DNA from: Gammaproteobacteria bacterium
GTDB lineage: Bacteria > Pseudomonadota > Gammaproteobacteria > SG8-11
Direction: 5' to 3'
Length of the DNA stretch: 64,000 nucleotides
Assembly: GCA_024641505.1 (NCBI GenBank)
Contig: JAHECY010000009.1
Coordinates: 20,091-84,090 of the forward strand
Numbering within the stretch: the stretch's first letter is position 1; every line of letters starts with the position of its first letter. A model generated the notes under the pieces. The model was not told where the DNA came from, did not search any database, and saw only the letters and a list, made by a program, of their open reading frames with translations. A program made the position numbers and the translations under genes. Shown piece after piece: positions 18,878-30,077 of this stretch.

Positions 18878-21697
18878 ATGGAATTGTACAGAAATATTTC
18901 TCAAACAGTCACCAGGATAATTGACGTGATCGGCATTGCCAAGGTCCGGATTGGATTATGTCTGATATTGATGATGTTGACGCAGTCCGTGTTCGCCAGT
19001 GTCGAAACGGGCGACCAAGCCTTGGAAAAAGGGGATTACGTGGCCGCCTTGCAGATCTGGAAACCACTTGCCGAACAAGGTAATGCGCAAGCGCAGATAC
19101 GTATTGGTGATTTGTACCGCAAGGGGTGGGGTGTGCGCCGGGACTTCAAAGCGGCATTTTCCTGGTATGAGAAAGCCGCGAGCCAGGGCGATCCCGAGGG
19201 GCAATACCAGTTGGGTAGTCTGTATCGGAACGGGATGGGCACCAGGAAAAATCTGGATGAAGCCGTTAGATGGTTTGAGGAAGCGGCCAAAAAGGGCTAC
19301 GACAAAGCTGAATTCAGTTTTGCGGTGATGTTGGAGAATGGTTGGGGTGTCGAAGAAAATGCCAAGCGTGCGCTGATCTGGTACGGTCGGGCCGCCAAGA
19401 AACAATATGCGCCGGCATTGAAGCGTCTTATGGAGTTGGAGAAGGAAGGTATCAAACCCGTAGTGGAAATAAAATCCGACGAAGATATTCCTCAGATTTT
19501 TTCCAGCGCCTTGCGTGACGGTAACGTCGACCAGGTCAATGCGATACTCCAGAAAGTAAAGAATGTAGATTATAAACTGGACAAATATCAAAATACTCCG
19601 CTGTTGCTCGCGGCTCAATATGGGCACGATGGTCTTGTGCAGTTGTTGCTTGAGAAAGGGGCTGCCGTTGATCACGCCAATCAACAGGGAGTAACCGCCT
19701 TGATGCGTGCCGCCAAGGCAGGCAGCGTGCGGGCAGTACGCGCGCTATTGAAGTACAACGGGTCTATGAATCATCAGGACGAGTTAGGTCGCACCGCGCT
19801 GATCGAGGCTATCAGTGATAACAAGAGCCAGGTGGTATCGCTGCTGTTGGGCAGCGGCGTGGATGTAAATCTCGCCGACAAAAAGGGGTGGTCACCGTTG
19901 TATCATGCGTTAAGAATCGATGAAACCCAGATTCTTGATATGCTGCTGCACTCGCCCGCCAAGGTGAATTACAAGGACAGCAGCGGTATTCCTATACTTC
20001 ATTATGTAATACAGCAGAAAAAACAGAATGTGCTGAATAAGCTGCTGGCGGCGGGAGCGGATGTCAACATTACCGATGCCATCGGTCAGAATGCCATGAT
20101 GGTCGCCGCTGACCTCGGCTATGCGCCCGCAGTCACCGCGTTGTTGGCCAAAGGCGCTGATTCACGTGTCAAGAATAACGAGGGCTGGACGCCGCTGATG
20201 CTAGCCGCGAAATCTGGCAGCAGTGCCTCGGTGGAAGCGCTGCTCAAGGCTGGAAATTCGGCGGATTTGCAGAACGAATATGGTGACACCGCGCTTATGC
20301 TGGCGGCCGGTAAAGGATTCGATGCGATTGTATCCTCCTTGATCAGCCACCGCGCGAACATCGATATGAAAAACAAGCAGGGATGGACCGCCTTGATGTT
20401 TGCCTCCCAAGCGGGATCGGCTGCCACCGTTAACACACTATTGCAGGCCGGTTCCGGTATCAATATAGTGAACAACCTGCAGGAATCTCCTCTGATGCTT
20501 GCCGCGGAAAGAGGGCACTTGGAAGTAGTGCGTGTGTTGGTAGCCAAGCGGGCGGATATTAACAGTAAGAATCGTGCCGGGCACAGCGCCGTGACACTTG
20601 CCGAAGCCAAGAACCAGAATTTGATTTTGAAATTCCTGCGCAGCAAAGGCGGTATCCTGTACAAGGTGGTGGAGACTCCTGAGTTAGAGCTAAAACGTCA
20701 GGATCAACGCCGGCAACAAGATCTGTTCAAGGGTTGGACCGAGCTGATGATCGCCGCCTGGAACGGTAAAATACTGGATGTTAACAACCTTCTGCGATCG
20801 GGTCAGCAGAAAGACGCCCAGAATCCCGATGGCATGACGGCGCTGATGCTGGCTACGGGCAAAGGAAATGCCGATGTCGTGCAATCCTTGCTTACCAACC
20901 AGGTGGACATCAATAAACAGGCGCGTAACGGCCGTACCGCGCTGATGATTGCTTTGGACGAAGGGCAATTCGATATCGCACGCCTGCTGCTGCCGTATAA
21001 ACCCCGACAGGACCTTGCGGACAAGCAGGGGCAAACCGCACTATTCTACGCCGTCGACAAACGCCAGCTGGCTTTGGTGCGCGATCTTCTGAAAGCGGGT
21101 GCCGATATCAGCAAGCGTACGGAGAATGGCGATACACCGCTGACGGACGCTTTGAAAAACAGCGCGGACGATATCGCCGTGTTCCTGGTAAATGCCGGTG
21201 CCGGAATCCACTGGATGGATAACGACGGCAGAAATATGTTGTGGCTGGCCGCGCGTTACAAAAATGACAATGCGGTTCGTTTGTTGATAAAGAAAGGATT
21301 GGATATCAATCACCGCAAGCATAACGGCGAATCCATTGCTATGGCTGCGGTGCGTAGTGGTGACGCCAAACTGGTTGATTTCCTGTTTTCCATTGGCGCG
21401 GACCTGCGTTCCACGGATCAGCAGGGTAATACCGCTTTGCATATTGCCAGCGATACCGGCAATCTTGAGATCGTTAAACTGTTGATCAAGTCAGGCGTCG
21501 GCGTCAACACTGAAAATGAAGTGTGGTCGACACCCATCATATTCGCCGCGTCCAAGGGGCATCTGGCGATTGTTACCTACCTCGTGGAGCATGGGGCGGA
21601 ACTGGATATCAAGAACAAAACCGGTGACACACCCTTCAGCATCGCCACTAGCCACGGCTACAAGGACGTGGCCAGTTATATCCGGCAGAAGTTATAG
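18878..21697 (+). CDS. Sel1-repeat and ankyrin-repeat protein
   Basis: 939 aa; three N-terminal Sel1 repeats (GDLYRKGWGVRRDFKAAFSWYEKAASQG) followed by a long ankyrin array (GWTPLMLAAKSGSSASVEALLKAGNSADLQNEYGDTALMLAA). Confidence 0.9.
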   Translation: MELYRNISQTVTRIIDVIGIAKVRIGLCLILMMLTQSVFASVETGDQALEKGDYVAALQIWKPLAEQGNAQAQIRIGDLYRKGWGVRRDFKAAFSWYEKAASQGDPEGQYQLGSLYRNGMGTRKNLDEAVRWFEEAAKKGYDKAEFSFAVMLENGWGVEENAKRALIWYGRAAKKQYAPALKRLMELEKEGIKPVVEIKSDEDIPQIFSSALRDGNVDQVNAILQKVKNVDYKLDKYQNTPLLLAAQYGHDGLVQLLLEKGAAVDHANQQGVTALMRAAKAGSVRAVRALLKYNGSMNHQDELGRTALIEAISDNKSQVVSLLLGSGVDVNLADKKGWSPLYHALRIDETQILDMLLHSPAKVNYKDSSGIPILHYVIQQKKQNVLNKLLAAGADVNITDAIGQNAMMVAADLGYAPAVTALLAKGADSRVKNNEGWTPLMLAAKSGSSASVEALLKAGNSADLQNEYGDTALMLAAGKGFDAIVSSLISHRANIDMKNKQGWTALMFASQAGSAATVNTLLQAGSGINIVNNLQESPLMLAAERGHLEVVRVLVAKRADINSKNRAGHSAVTLAEAKNQNLILKFLRSKGGILYKVVETPELELKRQDQRRQQDLFKGWTELMIAAWNGKILDVNNLLRSGQQKDAQNPDGMTALMLATGKGNADVVQSLLTNQVDINKQARNGRTALMIALDEGQFDIARLLLPYKPRQDLADKQGQTALFYAVDKRQLALVRDLLKAGADISKRTENGDTPLTDALKNSADDIAVFLVNAGAGIHWMDNDGRNMLWLAARYKNDNAVRLLIKKGLDINHRKHNGESIAMAAVRSGDAKLVDFLFSIGADLRSTDQQGNTALHIASDTGNLEIVKLLIKSGVGVNTENEVWSTPIIFAASKGHLAIVTYLVEHGAELDIKNKTGDTPFSIATSHGYKDVASYIRQKL

Positions 21698-21728: not shown

Positions 21729-23048
21729 TTACGCGGTGCCGTGCTTGGTTTCAACTTTGATGCCCATGGCTTTGAGCATGGGCATCGGTATCACCCCGCC
21801 GGCACTGACAATCACGATGTGATTGGGAATTTCCAGAATGTTGCCTTCCTGTTCCACCATGACGCTCTTGCTTTTGACTTCCTTGATATTGGATTTATAG
21901 AGGACGTTTATTTTCCCCGCTTTTTGCGCAGCATCGATTTTTTCGCGGTTCTTGGGTTTGGCACGGTTAAAGGACGCGCTTCGATACGATAATGTTACCG
22001 TGGTTTTCGGTTCATCCGCGATGCTAAGTGCTGCTTCCAGGGCACTGTCACCGCCACCGACCACCAGCACATGCTGGCCGCGGTATTGTTCCGGATCAAT
22101 CAGGCGGTATACCACTTTGGGCAAGTCTTCACCGGGTACCTCCAGTTTGCGGGGTGAGCCGCGGCGACCGATGGTCAACAATACGGTTTTGGTATGGTAT
22201 TGTTTTTTCGACGTGGTGACTACGTATCCGCCCTCGATGGGTTCCACAGCGGTCATGGTTTCATGGGTGTTGATTTTAATATCGGTTTGCTGCCGCGTTT
22301 TTTCCCAGAATTCCATTAAGGCTTCTTTAGTGGTCTCTCGGAAATTGACTTTGCCGACAATGGGCAGCATCGCGGGTTGGGTCATGACGATTTTGCCGCG
22401 CGGGTAATGTGACACAGTGCCACCGAAGGATTCTTGCTCAATAGTGACATATTTCAGCCCCAACTGATGGGCGCCGAGCGTGGCCGAAAATCCTGCTGGA
22501 CCGGCGCCTACGATGACCACATCCAATAATTTTCCACCTTTGCCAACGCCGGGTTTTTTGGTGATACTGTCGATGGCCTGCTTGCCTTGGGTGACTGCAT
22601 TACGTATGAGGCCCATGCCGCCAAGTTCACCCGCGATAAAAATTCCTGGAACATTCGTTTCAAAACTGGGATCCAGGGTCGGGATATCCACTCCCCGTTT
22701 TTCTGTGCCAAAAACAAGCGTTATAGCGCCAACCGGACAGGCGATTGCACAGGCGCCATGGCCAATACAATGGGTCGGATTAATCAGTTCAACGCGAGAT
22801 CCAATGATACCCAGGACATTCCCCTCCGGGCAGGCGGGCGCGCAGGTGTTACATCCGATGCACAGAATTTGATCAATCTTGGGGTGTAAGCTGGCCGGTT
22901 CCATCAAGCCAGCTTTTTGATTTTCTTCCAGTTCCCGGATATGGGCCGCTTCCCGCCGCTGGTGTACGCGGGCGCGCCAGGAAATAAAAGCAAAAACGGG
23001 TATAAGATAGAGAATTATCACCAGATAATTTAGAATTTCTCCAGACAT
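21729..23048 (-). CDS. 4Fe-4S ferredoxin-domain NAD(P)/FAD-dependent oxidoreductase
   Basis: 439 aa; CIGCNTCAPACP and CIGHGACAIACP clusters; GAGPAGFSA and VVGGGDSALEAALSIA dinucleotide folds; N-terminal TM helix. Confidence 0.85.
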   Translation of the reverse strand: MSGEILNYLVIILYLIPVFAFISWRARVHQRREAAHIRELEENQKAGLMEPASLHPKIDQILCIGCNTCAPACPEGNVLGIIGSRVELINPTHCIGHGACAIACPVGAITLVFGTEKRGVDIPTLDPSFETNVPGIFIAGELGGMGLIRNAVTQGKQAIDSITKKPGVGKGGKLLDVVIVGAGPAGFSATLGAHQLGLKYVTIEQESFGGTVSHYPRGKIVMTQPAMLPIVGKVNFRETTKEALMEFWEKTRQQTDIKINTHETMTAVEPIEGGYVVTTSKKQYHTKTVLLTIGRRGSPRKLEVPGEDLPKVVYRLIDPEQYRGQHVLVVGGGDSALEAALSIADEPKTTVTLSYRSASFNRAKPKNREKIDAAQKAGKINVLYKSNIKEVKSKSVMVEQEGNILEIPNHIVIVSAGGVIPMPMLKAMGIKVETKHGTA

Positions 23049-23181
23049 CCTGACCTCACATCAAAACATTATAATTTAAGATGTATAGTGTATACATGAA
23101 TAATTAAGTCATTGTTAATGAAGGCCGGTTATAAAAAGGCCGTGTTCACAATATAACGGATGCACCGGCAATGTAATTAGG

Positions 23182-23201
23182 TTTTGCATAATTTTGCATA
23201 A
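23182..23201. promoter_or_regulatory. perfect 10 bp tandem direct repeat TTTTGCATAA x2 in divergent promoter region
   Basis: read directly between divergent ORFs 21729-23048(-) and 23337-24332(+). Confidence 0.4.
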
Positions 23202-23336
23202 TGTAGGTAAATGTATACTTTGATTTTGTGACAGTGAGCGCATTATATTAATGGGATTATCCATAATATTGCAGGCTTGTGAGATTAAAGTATCTTACCT
23301 CGGTTACTTCATGTTGGTTGAGTAGGGAAGTCAGGA

Positions 23337-24332
23337 ATGGGATATAACAATACTGCGGCCGATTTGGTCAGTTTTGAAAAATCAGGTACCGCGCGTGATT
23401 CTGCGGTAACTGCCACGGCCAGTGCCGAGCATCAGCGGCAAGACGAACCTAACGACAAGACATCGGCGGTTAATGCGCGCATCCAGGTGGCACGTGCCAA
23501 GGTAACTAGATTGGCGCAGGATCGCCAGGTGACCTTCGCTTTGGGTATCATGGTGTTGTTTGTCGTTATCTACGCGTTGGGCAGGATTTACTGGAGAGAG
23601 CGTTACTATACGCCGGAAGATGGTTTGGGTTATTACCTGGGCCTGGTCGGCGGCGTGGTGATGCTGTTTGCTATTGCTTATTCCGCGATGAAGCGCGTAC
23701 GGTGGTTGCGCGCCACCAAATTCATGCGGCATTGGCTGCAATTGCACATTGTTTTGGGGATCGTCGGGCCCTATATGGTGCTGTTCCATTCGACGTTTCA
23801 TATCGGTTCGCTCAATGGCGGTATTGCTTTGGTGTCCATGACCATGGTATTCATCAGTGGCGTTGTCGGCAGATACCTGTACTCGAAGATTTATCTGGGT
23901 CTGGATGGCACCCGCATGCAAGCGCAGGAAGTCCGTGACCTCATGCAGTTTTTCGGGCGGCGCATTCACTCCAGTCGCATCGAACGTTTTCAGGAATCGG
24001 TGCTTGATGAACCCAAGGATTTATTGCACGCGTTCTATAAGTTAGTGATGTTCAAGATTCGCAGTTGGATCGTCTGGTATGGCGTACTGCGGGACGCGAA
24101 GAAGTATGTTTATGCCATCGGTCAGCGTAAGGGCTTGAGCAAGAAAGAAGCCAGAAATAAATACCTGCATTTCAAGAGAGATTTTCGCGAATACATGAAT
24201 ACGCTGCGTAAAGCGGCTCTGATGGGTGTTTATGAAAAAATATTCTCCTTCTGGCGCCATGCACACGTGCCACTTCTCTATCTGTTGGTCATCAGCGGTG
24301 TAGTGCACGTCATTGCCGTTCATATGTACTAG
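23337..24332 (+). CDS. multi-TM His-rich membrane protein (possible b-type cytochrome / ferric-reductase-like)
   Basis: 331 aa; about 4 TM helices with paired His (RHWLQLHIVLGIVGPYMVLFHSTFH; HAHVPLLYLLVISGVVHVIAVH); directly upstream of multiheme cytochrome genes. Confidence 0.6.
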   Translation: MGYNNTAADLVSFEKSGTARDSAVTATASAEHQRQDEPNDKTSAVNARIQVARAKVTRLAQDRQVTFALGIMVLFVVIYALGRIYWRERYYTPEDGLGYYLGLVGGVVMLFAIAYSAMKRVRWLRATKFMRHWLQLHIVLGIVGPYMVLFHSTFHIGSLNGGIALVSMTMVFISGVVGRYLYSKIYLGLDGTRMQAQEVRDLMQFFGRRIHSSRIERFQESVLDEPKDLLHAFYKLVMFKIRSWIVWYGVLRDAKKYVYAIGQRKGLSKKEARNKYLHFKRDFREYMNTLRKAALMGVYEKIFSFWRHAHVPLLYLLVISGVVHVIAVHMY

Positions 24333-24354
24333 ACAATAATAAAGATGTTTACGG

Positions 24355-25929
24355 ATGTTGGGAAAAAGATTGCTTCTGGCGGCAATAGTCGTCTTGTGTG
24401 GAATACCACCTGCGGGTGCGGCTACCGATGTGATCAATTCGGTGGAGCGGGCCTTAATGCCCGGCGAACTTTCCAAGCCGCACGCGAAATACGAGGCGGA
24501 TTGTAACCAATGCCATGAATTCTTCCGCAAAACCAAGCAGAATGATCTATGCCTTAAGTGTCATGATCATAAGAATATTCGCAAGGATATAGAGAATAAA
24601 CACGGCTTACACGGCCGTACGCCGGAAATCCGCAACAAAGATTGTAACGCCTGCCATTCCGAACACAAGGGTCGGGAAAACAACATCATTATTCTTGATA
24701 ACCAGACCTTTAATCACAATTTTACCGATTTCTTTCTTCAGGAAAGCCACGCCACGGTACCGTGTACCAAGTGCCATGAGAAGGACAAGAAGTATTACGA
24801 AGCGAAATCGGAATGCGTTGACTGCCACAAAAAAGTCGAGCCGCATCAGGGAAAGCTGGGCAAACAATGTAACAGCTGTCACCGGGCCAGCACCTGGGGT
24901 GATTTCGTCTACGATCATGGTAAAACGAAATTTCCGTTGAAAGGTAAGCACAAAGGTGTGCGCTGCAGCGATTGCCATCCTAATGAGCAATATATCAATA
25001 TTCCCAAGGAGTGCATTGGTTGTCATAAGGGTGATGACAAACACAAGGGCAAGAACGGCAAGGAATGCAAGAATTGCCATTCCGAGCAGGGTTGGGCGTC
25101 CTATAAATTTGATCATGACAAGGACACTAAATTTCCACTCGATGGCAAGCATAAAAATGTTATCTGCGACCAATGTCACAAGCAGACGGACGAAAAACGG
25201 AAATTAAAACGGGATTGCTATTTCTGTCACCAGTTCGTCGATGCGCATAAAGGGCTGTACGGCAAGAAATGCCAGGATTGCCATAAGACGGAGAATTGGT
25301 CCAAGCAAAAATTTGACCACGATAAAACGGATTTCAAGCTGGAGGGCAAGCATGAAAAAGTCCGTTGTCAGAGTTGTCATCCGGGTGATTTATATAAGGA
25401 CAAGGCAAAGAGCGAATGCTATGCCTGTCACAAGCAGGATGATCCGCATGCCGGCAAACAGGGCAAGCGGTGTAATGACTGTCATAATGAACAGGGTTGG
25501 CAGAAACAAATTGCGTTCGATCACAATTTGACAAAATTTCCTCTGTTAGGAGCCCATGCCGGGCTGACGTGTGAAGAGTGTCACAGTTCTGGCACTTTCA
25601 GTGAGGTAAAAATAAACTGTTACTCATGTCATAAGCAGCATGACAAACATAAGCTGCGCATGGGTGAGAAATGTCAGCGTTGTCATTTTTCCACCGACTG
25701 GAAGGTATGGGAATTCGATCATGACAAACAAACCAAGTATCCACTTAAGGAAGCCCATAAAGGCATCGCATGCGAGCGTTGCCACAAGGAAGTTGTCAAA
25801 GAGGATCTGAAAATTTCCAGTGTTTGTTATCGATGTCATGCCCACAATGATATTCATGAAGGGCAGTTCGGACGCAACTGCGGTCGTTGTCATGACACCA
25901 AGGCCTTTGAGAATGTAAATATGCGTTAG
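24355..25929 (+). CDS. periplasmic multiheme cytochrome c, 21 CXXCH motifs
   Basis: 524 aa; signal peptide; 21 CXXCH counted in the translation, arranged as 3-heme repeats with FDHDxTxFPLxGKHKxVxCxxCH. Confidence 0.93.
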   Translation: MLGKRLLLAAIVVLCGIPPAGAATDVINSVERALMPGELSKPHAKYEADCNQCHEFFRKTKQNDLCLKCHDHKNIRKDIENKHGLHGRTPEIRNKDCNACHSEHKGRENNIIILDNQTFNHNFTDFFLQESHATVPCTKCHEKDKKYYEAKSECVDCHKKVEPHQGKLGKQCNSCHRASTWGDFVYDHGKTKFPLKGKHKGVRCSDCHPNEQYINIPKECIGCHKGDDKHKGKNGKECKNCHSEQGWASYKFDHDKDTKFPLDGKHKNVICDQCHKQTDEKRKLKRDCYFCHQFVDAHKGLYGKKCQDCHKTENWSKQKFDHDKTDFKLEGKHEKVRCQSCHPGDLYKDKAKSECYACHKQDDPHAGKQGKRCNDCHNEQGWQKQIAFDHNLTKFPLLGAHAGLTCEECHSSGTFSEVKINCYSCHKQHDKHKLRMGEKCQRCHFSTDWKVWEFDHDKQTKYPLKEAHKGIACERCHKEVVKEDLKISSVCYRCHAHNDIHEGQFGRNCGRCHDTKAFENVNMR

Positions 25930-25982
25930 CTTAACGCGCATGAATAGCGGCAATTAACTTGCGTACAATTGGCAGTTCGGGT

Positions 25983-27734
25983 ATGAAAAATAAACAACTA
26001 CTAAATCCCATCAATATCGCGGGCAAGATTGGCGTGTCCTGGTCGCTCTTGTTGCTGCTGGCCGTACTGTTCGTCGTGCCGAATGCTTGGGCAAAGGCCA
26101 AGGATTTTGATCATTTCGCCACCGGATTCGTGCTTAGTGGAAAACATGAAAACCTGGGTTGCGCGACTTGCCATCTCAAAGGTGTATTCAAAGGGACGCC
26201 CACCAACTGTACAGGTTGCCACAACGGCAGTATCGCGATGGGTAAAAATGAAAAACATATTCTCGTGACCAATACCTGCGATGATTGCCATACCACCGTC
26301 GCTTGGATGCCTGCCAATATGGACCATTCCGCGGTGATGGGGTCGTGCAAAGTGTGCCATAACGGCTCCACGGCACCGGGTAAACCCGCAAATCATGTCA
26401 ATACCAATGGACAATGCGACGATTGTCATGGGACTTTGGCCTGGTCACCGGCTCGTTTTGATCATAGCAATATCACTGGTACCTGCGCGTCTTGTCACAA
26501 TGGCGTGAACGCACAGGGCAAATCCGCATCGCACATTGCAGTGACGGCGGATTGCGTCGAGTGCCACGACACCGTGGGATGGCGGCCCGCGCATATGAAT
26601 CACGATGTTGTGACCGCGCCTTGTGGCAGTTGTCATAATGGCAATACCGCCACGGGGAAACCCGGAGGCCATATCAAAACCAATAGTGAATGTGACAGTT
26701 GTCACGGTACCCGTGCCTGGACCCCGGCCAATTTTAATCATGAAAATGCCAGCGGTCCCTGCAGTGGTTGCCACAATGGTACTACTGCCACCGGCAAACC
26801 AGGTAACCATGTGCAGACCAGTGCTGAATGCAGCACCTGTCATTCCACGAATGCCTGGCTTCCCGTCAATTTCGATCATGGCACGGTGACCGGTAATTGC
26901 AGAAGCTGCCATGACAAGGACAAACCCGTGGGTTTTCATGCGGTGGTCACCGCGGATTGCGGCGAATGCCATCGGCCCGGCGGCTGGTTGCCAGCGAACA
27001 TGAACCATGACGTGGTAACGCCGAATTGCGTGCAATGCCATGATAATGTCAAACAGCCCGGCAAGCCCGGGAAGCACAAACCGACAAGCAATGCCTGTGG
27101 CGCGTGCCATAACACAATTGCGTGGGTGCCGGTCACGCGCATGGATCACAATGAAGTAACTGGTTTGTGCGCTAACTGCCATGACGGGATTTTTGCCACC
27201 GGCAAACCGGTGAACCATCTGGTGACTTCCAGCGATTGTGGCGCTTGCCACAGTACCAACGCCTGGGTACCCGCCACCGGTTTTGATCACAGTGGTGTCA
27301 CGGGAAATTGCAGCATTAATTGTCATAATGGCAGTGGTGTCGGTACTCCCAAGCCCAATAATCATTTTCTAACCACGCGTGAATGTGATACTTGCCATCG
27401 CACCACCGGCTGGTTGCCCGTGCGGTTTACTCACAGCAGCAGCGGTTATCCGAAGAACCACAACAACGCGGGCAATTGTACAATGTGTCACAGTACCAAT
27501 GCGGACACGATTCCCTGGCGCAGTGTCAGCTACAAGCCCTATTGCGCCGGTTGTCACCAGAGTAAGTGGCGCGCCGATCCTCATTTGAAGACCGAGAATC
27601 CGCAGGTCGTGCTCTATACGCTGACGGAGTTGCAGGATTGCACGACGTCCTGTCATATCTATACGGATGCTACCTTCACAACCATCCTGAAGACGAGAAG
27701 CGGGCACCACAACGCCAGTGACGGTGGTTGGTAG
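25983..27734 (+). CDS. multiheme cytochrome c, 20 CXXCH plus 2 CX3CH motifs
   Basis: ORF track starts at TTG 25959; ATG 25983 precedes signal peptide LLLLLAVLFVVPNAWA; 2-heme repeats (GKPxNHVxTxxxCxxCHxTxAWxPAxFDHxxVTGxCxxCHNG). Confidence 0.92.
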   Translation: MKNKQLLNPINIAGKIGVSWSLLLLLAVLFVVPNAWAKAKDFDHFATGFVLSGKHENLGCATCHLKGVFKGTPTNCTGCHNGSIAMGKNEKHILVTNTCDDCHTTVAWMPANMDHSAVMGSCKVCHNGSTAPGKPANHVNTNGQCDDCHGTLAWSPARFDHSNITGTCASCHNGVNAQGKSASHIAVTADCVECHDTVGWRPAHMNHDVVTAPCGSCHNGNTATGKPGGHIKTNSECDSCHGTRAWTPANFNHENASGPCSGCHNGTTATGKPGNHVQTSAECSTCHSTNAWLPVNFDHGTVTGNCRSCHDKDKPVGFHAVVTADCGECHRPGGWLPANMNHDVVTPNCVQCHDNVKQPGKPGKHKPTSNACGACHNTIAWVPVTRMDHNEVTGLCANCHDGIFATGKPVNHLVTSSDCGACHSTNAWVPATGFDHSGVTGNCSINCHNGSGVGTPKPNNHFLTTRECDTCHRTTGWLPVRFTHSSSGYPKNHNNAGNCTMCHSTNADTIPWRSVSYKPYCAGCHQSKWRADPHLKTENPQVVLYTLTELQDCTTSCHIYTDATFTTILKTRSGHHNASDGGW

Positions 27735-27770
27735 AGAAAAGAATAAATTTGTTTGGGGAAGTAATATTTA

Positions 27771-30077
27771 ATGCACCAAGTGTTTAGGTTTTTATTGTTG
27801 CTGTGCGCGGCAGGAGCGGCTGTTTCTGTGGCGGTCGCCGATCACCGGCCACCGGGAGAGCCTATTCTCCAGGGCGTCGAATACGCGGATCATAAGGATA
27901 CCGCGGCTATTCAAATCATGTTCACTGACGAGGTGGAATATGTCTCCGTCGCGCCACGTCGGATCGCGTCCATCTATACCATTCGATTCAAGTTTCGGCA
28001 GTCATCGGCCGGTAAACCTGACGCGAAGAGCTCGAGCAATAAGCCCCCGAAAGGTGAGTCGGCATTTCATCCCAAGGAAGTTCTGAAACCGCCGGTATCA
28101 CCCGCGATCCCTTTGGGCAATGTGGTATTCACCGAGGACAGCTTGGGTCCGAAGTTGTTGCTGAGTTTCAGCAAATATGTACGCATCGAAGTGCTGCCAG
28201 GTCCCGGTGCCAATGCCTTGACCATCAAACTGCCGGAGATCGCCGCCGGGGTAGAGCGCTCTCTTCCCAAGTCGAAACGCAAGCGTGAGGCACCATTACC
28301 ACTGGTGGCACCGGCAGTTGCACCGATAGTTGCGCCGCCAGTTGCACCAAAGGATGCACCGACAGTCGAGCCGGCGGTTGTGCCGAAATCAGATTTGCCG
28401 ACGAAACAAGTGACGGAATCAGAAGCCGATAAGCTGATGCGTTTGGGTAAGGACGCATTGACGCGAGGCGAAAATGACAAAGCCATCCAGATTTTCACGA
28501 AATTAATGGGCTTCGAGGGGAGCGAGCAGCAACGCGATGCATTGGAGTTCTTGGGCGTGGCTCGTGAGCGCAATGACCAGGTTGCACATGCCAAATCCAT
28601 TTATAGTCAATATATAAAACAGTATCCCAAGGGCGAGAGCACGGACCGGGTGCGTCAGCGTCTTGCCGATCTCATTAGTCACCAGATGAAACCAAAGAAA
28701 AAGCTTAAGCAGGCAGACGAAAGTACGCTGGTCAAGAGTTATACTTCGCAAACTTTCGGCTCGCTTTCGCAATACTATTACTATGGTTCGAACGATATCA
28801 AGGGCACCAATAAGCACCTGGACCAGTCTTTGCTGATATCGCAACTTTCCACCAGTTGGCGCGTGCGTACCACGAACTATGATATTCGCAATTTCCTCTA
28901 CGGCAATCACGACTATGATTTTCTGGATGATGAAAATGGCGATTTCATCCTCAGCCAGTTCTATTCAGACATCAAGAATTCAAAAGCCGGGTTTTATGCC
29001 AAGCTTGGACGCCAGTCGGGATCTTCCGGTGGAGTTTTGGGCAGATTCGACGGCGTATTGCTCGGTTACGATTTGTTGCGACAGATGCGGGTCAATGTGG
29101 TGTGGGGATATCCTGTCGAGTTTCAGAATAAATCGTCGATTTCCACCGATAAACCGTTCTGGGGCCTGAATTTCGAGTTCAGCGATGTCATCACCAATCT
29201 CGATTTGGCTCCGTACTACATTCATCAGGATGTGAACGGTATCACTGATCGTGAGGCCGCGGGTTATGAGTTACGTTACTTCCATGCCTCCAAGGGTAAT
29301 TTCTTTAACCTTGTGGACTATGACATTTACTTCAAGGCACTCAATATCTTGTTGTTGCGGGGGCAGTATAATATTACTGACCGGAGCAACGTAAATTTCA
29401 ATTTTGATTATCGACGGACTCCCTTGCTGCAAAGCAGTACCGCGACGCAAAGTGGTGCCGCAAACGGTGCCACCGTGGAAGACCTGTTGCAAACACTCAA
29501 TGCGGAGGAAATACGCGATCTGGCCCTGAAGTGGACCGGCGAGTCCACAGCGACGACGCTTGGAGTTTCCCATCAAGCCAGTGAGCGCGTGCAGTTCAAT
29601 GCGGATTTGACGCAATCGGAACAAACCAGCAAAACGCTTAACGTCGATCAGATAACCGTGGACGATAGCAAAGACAAGCAGCACTATGTTTCCACGCAGA
29701 TGATTTTCAATCGGTTGCTAAATGACCGGGATACTTATGTATTCGGATTGCGTTGGTCTGATACCGCAAACTATGACAACTATCTATTGTCGGTGGCGGT
29801 GCGATTACCCGTTCAAGCCTGGCGTTGGGATTTAACTTATCGTATTGATACCCGCGAAGAGAAGGATGGACCGACCTTGACGCGTAACCGGCCTACTGTC
29901 AAGCTGGACTACAAAGTGGGCAAGGATATGGAATTACAGTTCCAGGTCGGCATGGAAATGTGGCGCTACGCCAAGGGCAACACGAAATCCGATCCAACGG
30001 CTACCAGTCCACCGGACGTTTCTGACGAGAATCATAACCGCTACAACGCAAATGTCGGATATCACTGGAACTTCTGA
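27771..30077 (+). CDS. TPR-containing outer-membrane beta-barrel-like protein (putative porin partner of cytochromes)
   Basis: 768 aa; signal peptide; Pro/Ala/Val linker; TPR-like region; C-terminal alternating aromatic strands ending NRYNANVGYHWNF (terminal Phe). Confidence 0.65.
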   Translation: MHQVFRFLLLLCAAGAAVSVAVADHRPPGEPILQGVEYADHKDTAAIQIMFTDEVEYVSVAPRRIASIYTIRFKFRQSSAGKPDAKSSSNKPPKGESAFHPKEVLKPPVSPAIPLGNVVFTEDSLGPKLLLSFSKYVRIEVLPGPGANALTIKLPEIAAGVERSLPKSKRKREAPLPLVAPAVAPIVAPPVAPKDAPTVEPAVVPKSDLPTKQVTESEADKLMRLGKDALTRGENDKAIQIFTKLMGFEGSEQQRDALEFLGVARERNDQVAHAKSIYSQYIKQYPKGESTDRVRQRLADLISHQMKPKKKLKQADESTLVKSYTSQTFGSLSQYYYYGSNDIKGTNKHLDQSLLISQLSTSWRVRTTNYDIRNFLYGNHDYDFLDDENGDFILSQFYSDIKNSKAGFYAKLGRQSGSSGGVLGRFDGVLLGYDLLRQMRVNVVWGYPVEFQNKSSISTDKPFWGLNFEFSDVITNLDLAPYYIHQDVNGITDREAAGYELRYFHASKGNFFNLVDYDIYFKALNILLLRGQYNITDRSNVNFNFDYRRTPLLQSSTATQSGAANGATVEDLLQTLNAEEIRDLALKWTGESTATTLGVSHQASERVQFNADLTQSEQTSKTLNVDQITVDDSKDKQHYVSTQMIFNRLLNDRDTYVFGLRWSDTANYDNYLLSVAVRLPVQAWRWDLTYRIDTREEKDGPTLTRNRPTVKLDYKVGKDMELQFQVGMEMWRYAKGNTKSDPTATSPPDVSDENHNRYNANVGYHWNF

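Follow-up and report, generated by a model that had tools for sequence, protein, structure and literature searches.

A PCC3 porin-cytochrome locus with a divergently encoded Fe-S/FAD oxidoreductase as its probable partner

In this study, we find that four collinear genes in the window (the whole stretch of 64,000 nucleotides that was analysed) almost certainly encode a porin-cytochrome conduit of the PCC3 class, and that the Fe-S/FAD oxidoreductase encoded divergently from them is very probably a functional partner of this conduit. It is this partner gene that looks to be new here, as the protein is mentioned in none of the PCC3 main texts consulted; it may have been drawn as a neighbor in Figure 6 or the supplement of He et al. 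(2017; PMC5566968). Since nearly every PCC3 carrier checked also has the Fe-S/FAD enzyme, the conduit may plug into NAD(P)H, and we consider it probable that the locus forms a PCC3-type trans-envelope conduit with the Fe-S/FAD protein as its cytoplasmic end.

RESULTS

The locus and its class

The five open reading frames recognized in the preliminary description were correctly placed and all are intact. The Fe-S/FAD pyridine-nucleotide oxidoreductase, a membrane-anchored protein of 439 aa recognized by its Pfam, NCBIfam and PDB relatives and its co-occurrence with PCC3, is encoded on the reverse strand (positions 21729-23048). An intergenic region identified by its position (23049-23336), and presumed to be a control region shared by both sides, separates it from the four genes on the forward strand: the inner-membrane protein (IMP; 331 aa; 23337-24332), multiheme cytochromes A (24355-25929) and B (25959-27734), and a 768-aa porin (27771-30077). 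The extent of five genes stood, but one associated gene had been left out, encoding a 939-aa Sel1 and ankyrin repeat protein with an N-terminal signal-like segment (18878-21697, forward strand). The whole set of four collinear genes and divergent oxidoreductase recurs in other genomes which, together with the c7/c3 cytochrome, Pyr_redox_3 and 4Fe-4S family matches, places it beyond chance. The cytochromes might have turned up elsewhere with neither membrane partner; in the relatives' loci they adjoin both.

The gene order is that of Slit_1446-1449 in Sideroxydans lithotrophicus ES-1 (IMP, cyt-c_p, cyt-c_e, porin). With this cluster and with Slit_0867-0870 of the same strain the locus shares the four proteins, their order, the IMP motifs, a 21-heme cytochrome and a large barrel; it differs from PCC3, as presented in the main text of He et al. 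(2017), in the additional Fe-S/FAD and Sel1/ankyrin proteins. The locus had been taken for a non-MtrCAB analogue, and the porin-cytochrome anatomy and the lack of an MtrB/PioB match for the barrel bear this out, but it is a known kind of conduit rather than a new one, because PCC3 was already named by He et al. (2017). MtrCAB, MtoAB and PioAB resemble it in outline, in that a barrel goes with multiheme cytochromes, periplasmic as well as outer, whereas they have 10 hemes against 21 and 22 here, and a CymA-type quinol dehydrogenase where a predicted cytochrome b stands here. Membership in MtrCAB/MtoAB was rejected, since the porin matches no MtrB/PioB profile (TIGR03509, NCBIfam, E ≤ 0.1) and the decaheme MtrA/DmsE cytochrome profile TIGR03508 scored 73.8 and 23.3 bits, below its cut-off of 192.2. 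The host assembly is gammaproteobacterial and 4.78 Mb in size; elsewhere in it lie two separate MtrB/PioB porin loci, both above the TIGR03509 cut-off. PCC4, as far as the main text of He et al. (2017) describes it, shares the His pattern of the IMP and has extra redox genes in its cluster, but it has three periplasmic cytochromes, lacks an extracellular one, and has an IMP reported as not homologous overall to that of PCC3. Membership in PCC4 was dismissed, as the locus has two cytochromes (21 and 22 hemes), which stand in PCC3 order.

Membrane proteins and cytochromes

The IMP is predicted from its motifs and AlphaFold2 model to be a two-heme cytochrome b. According to the main text of He et al. 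(2017; PMC5566968), the PCC3 IMP is a conserved protein of about 300 aa with five transmembrane helices, bearing WX3HX13H on TM3 and TM5 and SGXXG on TM4. The 331-aa protein agrees in size, helices and motifs: its model has five long helices (pLDDT 80.8), and it carries two WX3HX13H motifs (W133, H137, H151; W306, H310, H324) and SGXXG at 174-178. Nine of these residues (W133, H137, H151, S174, G175, G178, W306, H310 and H324) showed no variation in 39 homologues. The protein had been described as His-rich; it is indeed a membrane protein with 12 His (and no Cys), but the label is loose, since the four invariant His matter and not their count. No Pfam family, PF01794 included, was matched at E ≤ 0.1 and a fold search of the model against the PDB gave nothing significant, so that the cytochrome b reading rests on the motifs. 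The IMP was thus rejected as a ferric reductase domain (PF01794), with which the His spacing is the sole common feature.

The heme motifs counted in the preliminary description were confirmed for both cytochromes (21 CXXCH in cytochrome A; 20 CXXCH plus 2 CX3CH in cytochrome B), and both match Cytochrome_C7 in Pfam (E = 4e-30 and 4e-27, respectively). Cytochrome A, inferred from its signal-like N-terminus ahead of the CXXCH series to be periplasmic, is arranged as seven triheme modules of about 67 aa. Its closest solved chain by sequence is 3ov0 (a weak match, E = 0.0027), presumably a four-module dodecaheme protein. Tandem triheme c7-like modules are common to cytochrome A and this Geobacter GSU1996-type structure, which differs in having 12 hemes in four modules against 21 in seven. 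Of 61 homologues of cytochrome A, all but one have 18, 21 or 24 hemes, and its own 21 hemes equal the median published for the PCC3 periplasmic cytochrome in the main text of He et al. (2017).

For cytochrome B, translation probably starts from the ATG at 25983 and not from the TTG that was listed (25959), as the former stands in front of the signal peptide. The protein has 22 hemes at a regular 23-residue spacing, occupies the gene position of the PCC3 extracellular multiheme cytochrome, and belongs among relatives whose heme number varies widely. The extracellular cytochrome is characterized in the main text of He et al. (2017) by many hemes in short repeats, with a median of 34, which the 22 hemes here fall below. 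The sequence of cytochrome B contains no lipobox; we presume from its features that it is extracellular or embedded in the barrel.

The 768-aa protein, called barrel-like before, does model as a 22-strand outer-membrane barrel (AlphaFold2, pLDDT 81.3, mostly >90 in the barrel part). It has a hydrophobic N-terminus, an N-terminal beta domain (residues 33-154), a TPR region (216-304), the barrel itself (325-767) and a C-terminal Phe. Foldseek matched it to outer-membrane beta-barrels, MtrB (6r2q_B) among them, and on these matches and the model a non-barrel reading was rejected. Homologues were found in 23 of 143 related genomes.

The Fe-S/FAD protein and its association with PCC3

The Fe-S/FAD protein combines an N-terminal membrane anchor with Fe-S motifs and FAD/NAD(P) sites (Pfam: Pyr_redox_3, E = 1e-41, plus 4Fe-4S families). 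A TM-like segment begins 76 of 80 homologues, 58 of the 80 have an NADP-type arginine pattern as judged by a simple motif, and the second-Cys position of the second Fe-S motif is His in 60, Cys in 12, Ser in 3 and unmatched in 5. Among solved structures, those of Bdr/YpdA, thioredoxin reductases and ferredoxin-NADP reductases match best. The FAD- and NAD(P)-binding domains resemble those of YpdA/Bdr and thioredoxin-reductase-like flavoproteins (E = 2e-42 to PDB 7a7b), whereas the anchor and Fe-S motifs, the absence of both a CXXC and the Bdr Cys, and a FAD-lid segment that precedes the FAD domain instead of following it set the protein apart from YpdA/Bdr. No redox-active cysteine pair is present. 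All seven Cys lie within the Fe-S motifs, the family alignment has no invariant Cys outside them, and the position of the active Cys in Bdr is Ala or Ser; therefore no thiol-redox site is visible. Identification as a YpdA/Bdr disulfide reductase was rejected on this replacement and on a score of 167.6 bits, below the curated cut-off of 339.9, and a disulfide-reductase role in general is disfavored, there being no conserved Cys outside the Fe-S motifs.

The Fe-S/FAD gene was present in all 23 genomes with the PCC3 barrel against 2 of 120 without it among the 143 related genomes (Fisher p ~1e-24), one of the latter two being a PCC3 locus truncated at the end of its contig. Across 399 genomes of the phylum, the six with strong IMP matches were the same six with strong Fe-S/FAD matches. 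PCC3 parts lay alongside the gene in 73 of 80 named loci, and the IMP gene was divergent and no more than 2.5 kb away in 58; for the seven loci with no PCC3 parts nearby, a genome-level check found an IMP elsewhere in five and none in two (L058 and L123). The co-occurrence thus persists where the genes are unlinked, which rules out a chance neighbor. The distance matrices of the Fe-S/FAD protein and the IMP are correlated (r = 0.74; null maximum 0.16), although correlation and co-occurrence can partly come from the locus being transferred as a whole. No fusion of the two genes was found. Amphritea atlantica DSM 18887 and Bradyrhizobium sp. STM 3843, which the main text of He et al. (2017; PMC5566968) names as PCC3 carriers, were both recovered with IMP and cytochromes, and in both the same Fe-S/FAD gene lies by the PCC3 genes (L107, with 64 and 21 heme motifs, and L087, respectively).

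The Sel1/ankyrin protein (Pfam: Sel1, 1e-24; Ank_2, 2e-128), absent from the main-text description of PCC3 in He et al. (2017), is a frequent sixth partner. A Sel1-type ORF follows immediately downstream of the Fe-S/FAD gene in no fewer than 50 of the 76 named loci and is adjacent in many further genomes; the two genes are convergent here and in a genome of the same genus (L023).

DISCUSSION

PCC3 is a predicted electron wire across the entire cell envelope, and we lean slightly toward the Fe-S/FAD protein being its electron-carrying NAD(P)(H) module. Electrons would be exchanged between NAD(P)H, FAD and the Fe-S cluster(s) at the cytoplasmic face, and pass between the cluster(s) and first the inner, then the outer b-heme of the IMP. 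From the outer b-heme the path would run along the 21-heme periplasmic wire to the barrel with its 22-heme cytochrome and an extracellular acceptor or donor. This layout would be that of an NADPH oxidase or ferric reductase divided into separate subunits and prolonged through the envelope. The comparison is a working analogy: the spacing of the two HX13H pairs and a cytoplasmic NAD(P)H/FAD module are alike, but the IMP lacks PF01794 and the flavoprotein is separate, thioredoxin-reductase-like and equipped with Fe-S motifs. Tentatively, the Fe-S flavoprotein may deliver electrons directly to a four-His cytochrome b, connecting cytoplasmic NAD(P)(H) with the exterior via >40 c-hemes and bypassing the quinone pool. 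If true, it would be a split NADPH-oxidase-like machine across both membranes. Outward flow from NAD(P)H would be energetically easier, and inward flow to NAD(P)+ would call for a low-potential donor or flavin-based bifurcation. In strain CL21, an IMP gene is published to have risen along with the ability to oxidize iron, which fits electron uptake as well.

He et al. (2017; PMC5566968) proposed, according to the main text, that the IMP and the quinone pool exchange electrons, because the IMP resembles quinone-active cytochrome b. In this published model, PCC3 would take up electrons from Fe(II) or minerals outside the cell, and the Fe-S/FAD protein would be an accessory, for example in quinone feeding or regulation. 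Genes for RuBisCO and a dsrA-type protein are present in the host, as expected of a lithoautotroph, and many carriers are Gallionella, Sideroxydans or sulfur-oxidizer-like lineages. Nevertheless, this model leaves the near-constant NAD(P)-binding flavoprotein unexplained, and no tie between PCC3 and Fe(II) oxidation emerges from the published expression data, in which the two PCC3 clusters of ES-1 were down-regulated on Fe(II); we regard it as rather unlikely. More doubtful still is that the Fe-S/FAD protein stands outside the conduit as an assembly factor, a reductant for maturation of the Cys- and heme-rich cytochromes. The relation of its FAD/NAD domain to thioredoxin reductase and bacillithiol disulfide reductase would suit such a task, as would a CcmI/CycH cytochrome-maturation gene between IMP and Fe-S/FAD genes in 18 loci, but the confinement of its Cys to Fe-S motifs speaks against it.

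We found no demonstration of extracellular electron exchange in the PCC3 literature, and a 2025 paper calls PCC3 functionally unverified. The locus might accordingly serve some other end, with the cytochromes storing electrons or buffering the redox state of the periplasm and the barrel serving other transport, and the surface location of cytochrome B, which has no lipobox, is itself a prediction. Against this, the order of IMP, two cytochromes and barrel is fixed across wide divergence among the relatives' loci, and the limited heme numbers of the periplasmic cytochrome come close to what crossing the periplasm is estimated to require; such a role is very improbable. The conduit with an Fe-S/FAD cytoplasmic end remains our preferred reading.

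PCC3 occurs widely among Alpha-, Beta- and Gammaproteobacteria, and some of its cytochromes are among the largest known. As a marker, the Fe-S/FAD gene, conserved at 54-82% identity, outperforms the divergent porin or IMP in locating PCC3 loci. With an NAD(P)-binding flavoprotein as near-obligate partner, there is also a concrete entry point to the inner-membrane end of PCC3 and to its direction. Such a partner suggests that PCC3 may be linked to NAD(P)H and not to quinone alone, a link that would bear on the habitual listing of PCC3 among candidate Fe(II) oxidases.

Identity of the locus

All five open reading frames that the preliminary description had listed were found in the window sequence, namely an Fe-S/FAD oxidoreductase gene (21729-23048, minus strand) and, on the plus strand, genes for an inner-membrane protein predicted to be a cytochrome b (IMP; 23337-24332), the periplasmic cytochrome A (24355-25929), the presumed extracellular cytochrome B (25959-27734) and a 768-aa barrel protein (27771-30077). 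By motif count, cytochrome A contains 21 CXXCH motifs and cytochrome B contains 20, plus two CX3CH, while no heme motif occurs in the membrane protein or the barrel. The listed start of cytochrome B is the TTG at 25959; judged from the sequence, translation more probably begins at the ATG at 25983, which precedes the signal peptide.

The gene order of membrane protein, cytochrome, cytochrome and porin is that of PCC3, a porin-cytochrome conduit reported from Sideroxydans, Leptothrix and other Proteobacteria by He et al. (2017; PMC5566968), and for which Slit_1446-1449 were later named IMP, cyt-c_p, cyt-c_e and porin (PMC12016527). The IMP residues that do not vary among 39 homologues (W133, H137, H151, S174, G175, G178, W306, H310 and H324) are exactly its two WX3HX13H motifs and its SGXXG motif, and its AlphaFold2 model has five long helices. 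The 21 hemes of the periplasmic cytochrome equal the published median. In its AlphaFold2 model the 768-aa protein starts with a beta domain, continues with a TPR domain and ends in a barrel of 22 strands (residues 325-767); Foldseek matched it to outer-membrane barrels, among them MtrB (6r2q_B), and a profile search against the MtrB/PioB family model gave no match. Moreover, our scan recovered the same genes in two carriers named in 2017, Bradyrhizobium sp. STM 3843 and Amphritea atlantica DSM 18887, the latter with 64 and 21 heme motifs here versus 63 and 21 published. On the strength of gene order, IMP motifs, heme number, barrel model and recovered carriers, we assign the locus to PCC3. The outline of the earlier interpretation, a non-MtrCAB analogue for extracellular electron exchange or metal/sulfur redox chemistry, is supported, but the system is not new.

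Among loci L048-L127, the periplasmic cytochrome could be counted in 61 and carries 21 (40 loci), 24 (10), 18 (10) or 16 (1) hemes, so that 60 of the 61 correspond to six, seven or eight triheme modules. The number follows lineage: the Alphaproteobacteria seen have 18 hemes, most Gallionella/Sideroxydans have 24 and most others 21; the counts of 21, 24 and 27 published for Gallionellaceae are consistent with triheme steps. It could reflect the width of the periplasm. Counterparts of cytochrome B range from about 9 to more than 70 hemes, and cytochromes with 73 (L026:7926-13424) and 69 CXXCH motifs (L029:11157-16271) lie beside PCC3 barrels in related genomes.

The host assembly encodes three PCC3 barrels and two Fe-S/FAD proteins. 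It also has two MtrB/PioB-family porins, both exceeding the curated cut-off (C209:4011-5954; C222:47519-49465), which indicates that Mtr-type and PCC3-type conduits coexist. Together with one DsrA-family protein and two RuBisCO genes, these genes suggest that the host is a sulfur-oxidising autotroph with many routes for electron transfer. The two other PCC3-like barrels, one with a full IMP/21-heme/30-heme set, and the second Fe-S/FAD gene, which lies close to the start of a contig and has Sel1/ankyrin ORFs nearby, belong to a group of host contigs (C200 = L021, C203 = L022, C48 = L136) of which C200 and C48 may be adjacent. Another host contig, C45, encodes a 1180-aa cytochrome with 43 CXXCH motifs (L046:8425-11967), and no PCC3 partner was detected on the stretch read.

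An Fe-S/FAD partner of PCC3

The new point of this study is that PCC3 has a near-obligate Fe-S/FAD partner. The PCC3 barrel is present in 23 of 143 related genomes, all 23 of which encode the Fe-S/FAD protein, and a high-scoring Fe-S/FAD protein occurs in just two of the 120 barrel-less genomes (Fisher p about 1e-24). Of the two, G097 has its Fe-S/FAD gene next to IMP and a 21-heme cytochrome, at a point where the contig ends; in G102, a search of the genome for IMP found none. Of 399 genomes drawn phylum-wide, six match IMP strongly, and exactly these six also match Fe-S/FAD strongly. Unlinked genes still co-occur, as on separate contigs in genomes G500 and G090. In the species genomes scanned with the Fe-S/FAD alignment (80 named loci), PCC3 parts lie on the locus in 73, and IMP is divergent from and within 2.5 kb of the Fe-S/FAD gene in 58. 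Five of the seven loci lacking PCC3 parts carry IMP elsewhere in the genome, and L058 and L123, from metagenome assemblies G535 and G539, are the only ones of the 80 in whose genomes no IMP was found. Distances within the Fe-S/FAD and IMP families are also correlated (r = 0.74, 68 loci; null maximum 0.16). That the oxidoreductase is a chance neighbour is ruled out by this co-occurrence across genomes.

The main text of He et al. (2017; PMC5566968) mentions neither FAD, flavoprotein, pyridine nucleotide or thioredoxin reductase nor ankyrin, Sel1 or ferredoxin. No such partner was found in the text of the later PCC3 papers examined, nor by literature searches, and priority is not certain.

Two further genes accompany the pair. 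A protein with Sel1 and ankyrin repeats and a signal-like N-terminus (18878-21697, plus strand) is encoded beside the Fe-S/FAD gene in the window, and its counterpart lies directly downstream of that gene in at least 50 of the 76 loci with room for it. Most gammaproteobacterial PCC3 loci (L101, L053, L061 and others) contain it alongside the Fe-S/FAD gene, whose stop codon it often overlaps, and it was not detected in the Gallionella/Sideroxydans PCC3 loci. A CcmI/CycH cytochrome-maturation gene sits between IMP and Fe-S/FAD in 18 named loci (L089:8218-9528, L071:8696-9955 and others).

The Fe-S/FAD protein has a TM-like segment at its N-terminus, as do 76 of 80 homologues; basic residues come next, then two Fe-S motifs and last the FAD and NAD(P) domains. 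Because positive residues follow the helix, the rest of the protein is predicted to be cytoplasmic. All seven cysteines of the window protein fall within the Fe-S motifs and it has no CXXC; 60 of 80 homologues have His in the second motif where its second Cys would stand. Among solved structures, its nearest relatives are Bdr/YpdA, thioredoxin reductases and ferredoxin-NADP reductases. In these the counterpart of the PGIFIAGELGGMGLI segment is the C-terminal FAD lid, whereas the segment stands ahead of the GxGPxG motif in all 73 Fe-S/FAD sequences in which both were found. Short Fe-S/FAD fragments matched, weakly (E 0.01-0.04), the end of the Pyr_redox_2 model (positions 258-291 out of 291). 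From its sequence, the protein appears to be a circularly permuted form of the thioredoxin-reductase fold.

Proposed electron path

From the parts, motifs, modelled folds and co-occurrence observed, we infer a path in which NAD(P)H would exchange electrons with the FAD and then the Fe-S centres of the Fe-S/FAD protein, these with the two b-hemes of IMP, the b-hemes with the 21-heme wire of cytochrome A, and the wire, through the barrel with cytochrome B, with the exterior. A published correlation of length with heme number implies that a cytochrome needs about 27 hemes to span the periplasm, and proteins with 21-24 hemes have been named possible bridges across it (PMC7096707). By our own reasoning, outward flow through the inner membrane would be favoured both by the membrane potential and by the energy drop from NAD(P)H, whereas uptake from Fe(II) to NAD(P)+ would have to overcome both. 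In line with this, ES-1 lowers the expression of its two PCC3 clusters on Fe(II) (PMC8788666). Data for strain CL21 are mixed (PMC12442390), and the flow may run either way. So constant a partner suggests that PCC3 may work by an NAD(P)H-linked mechanism.
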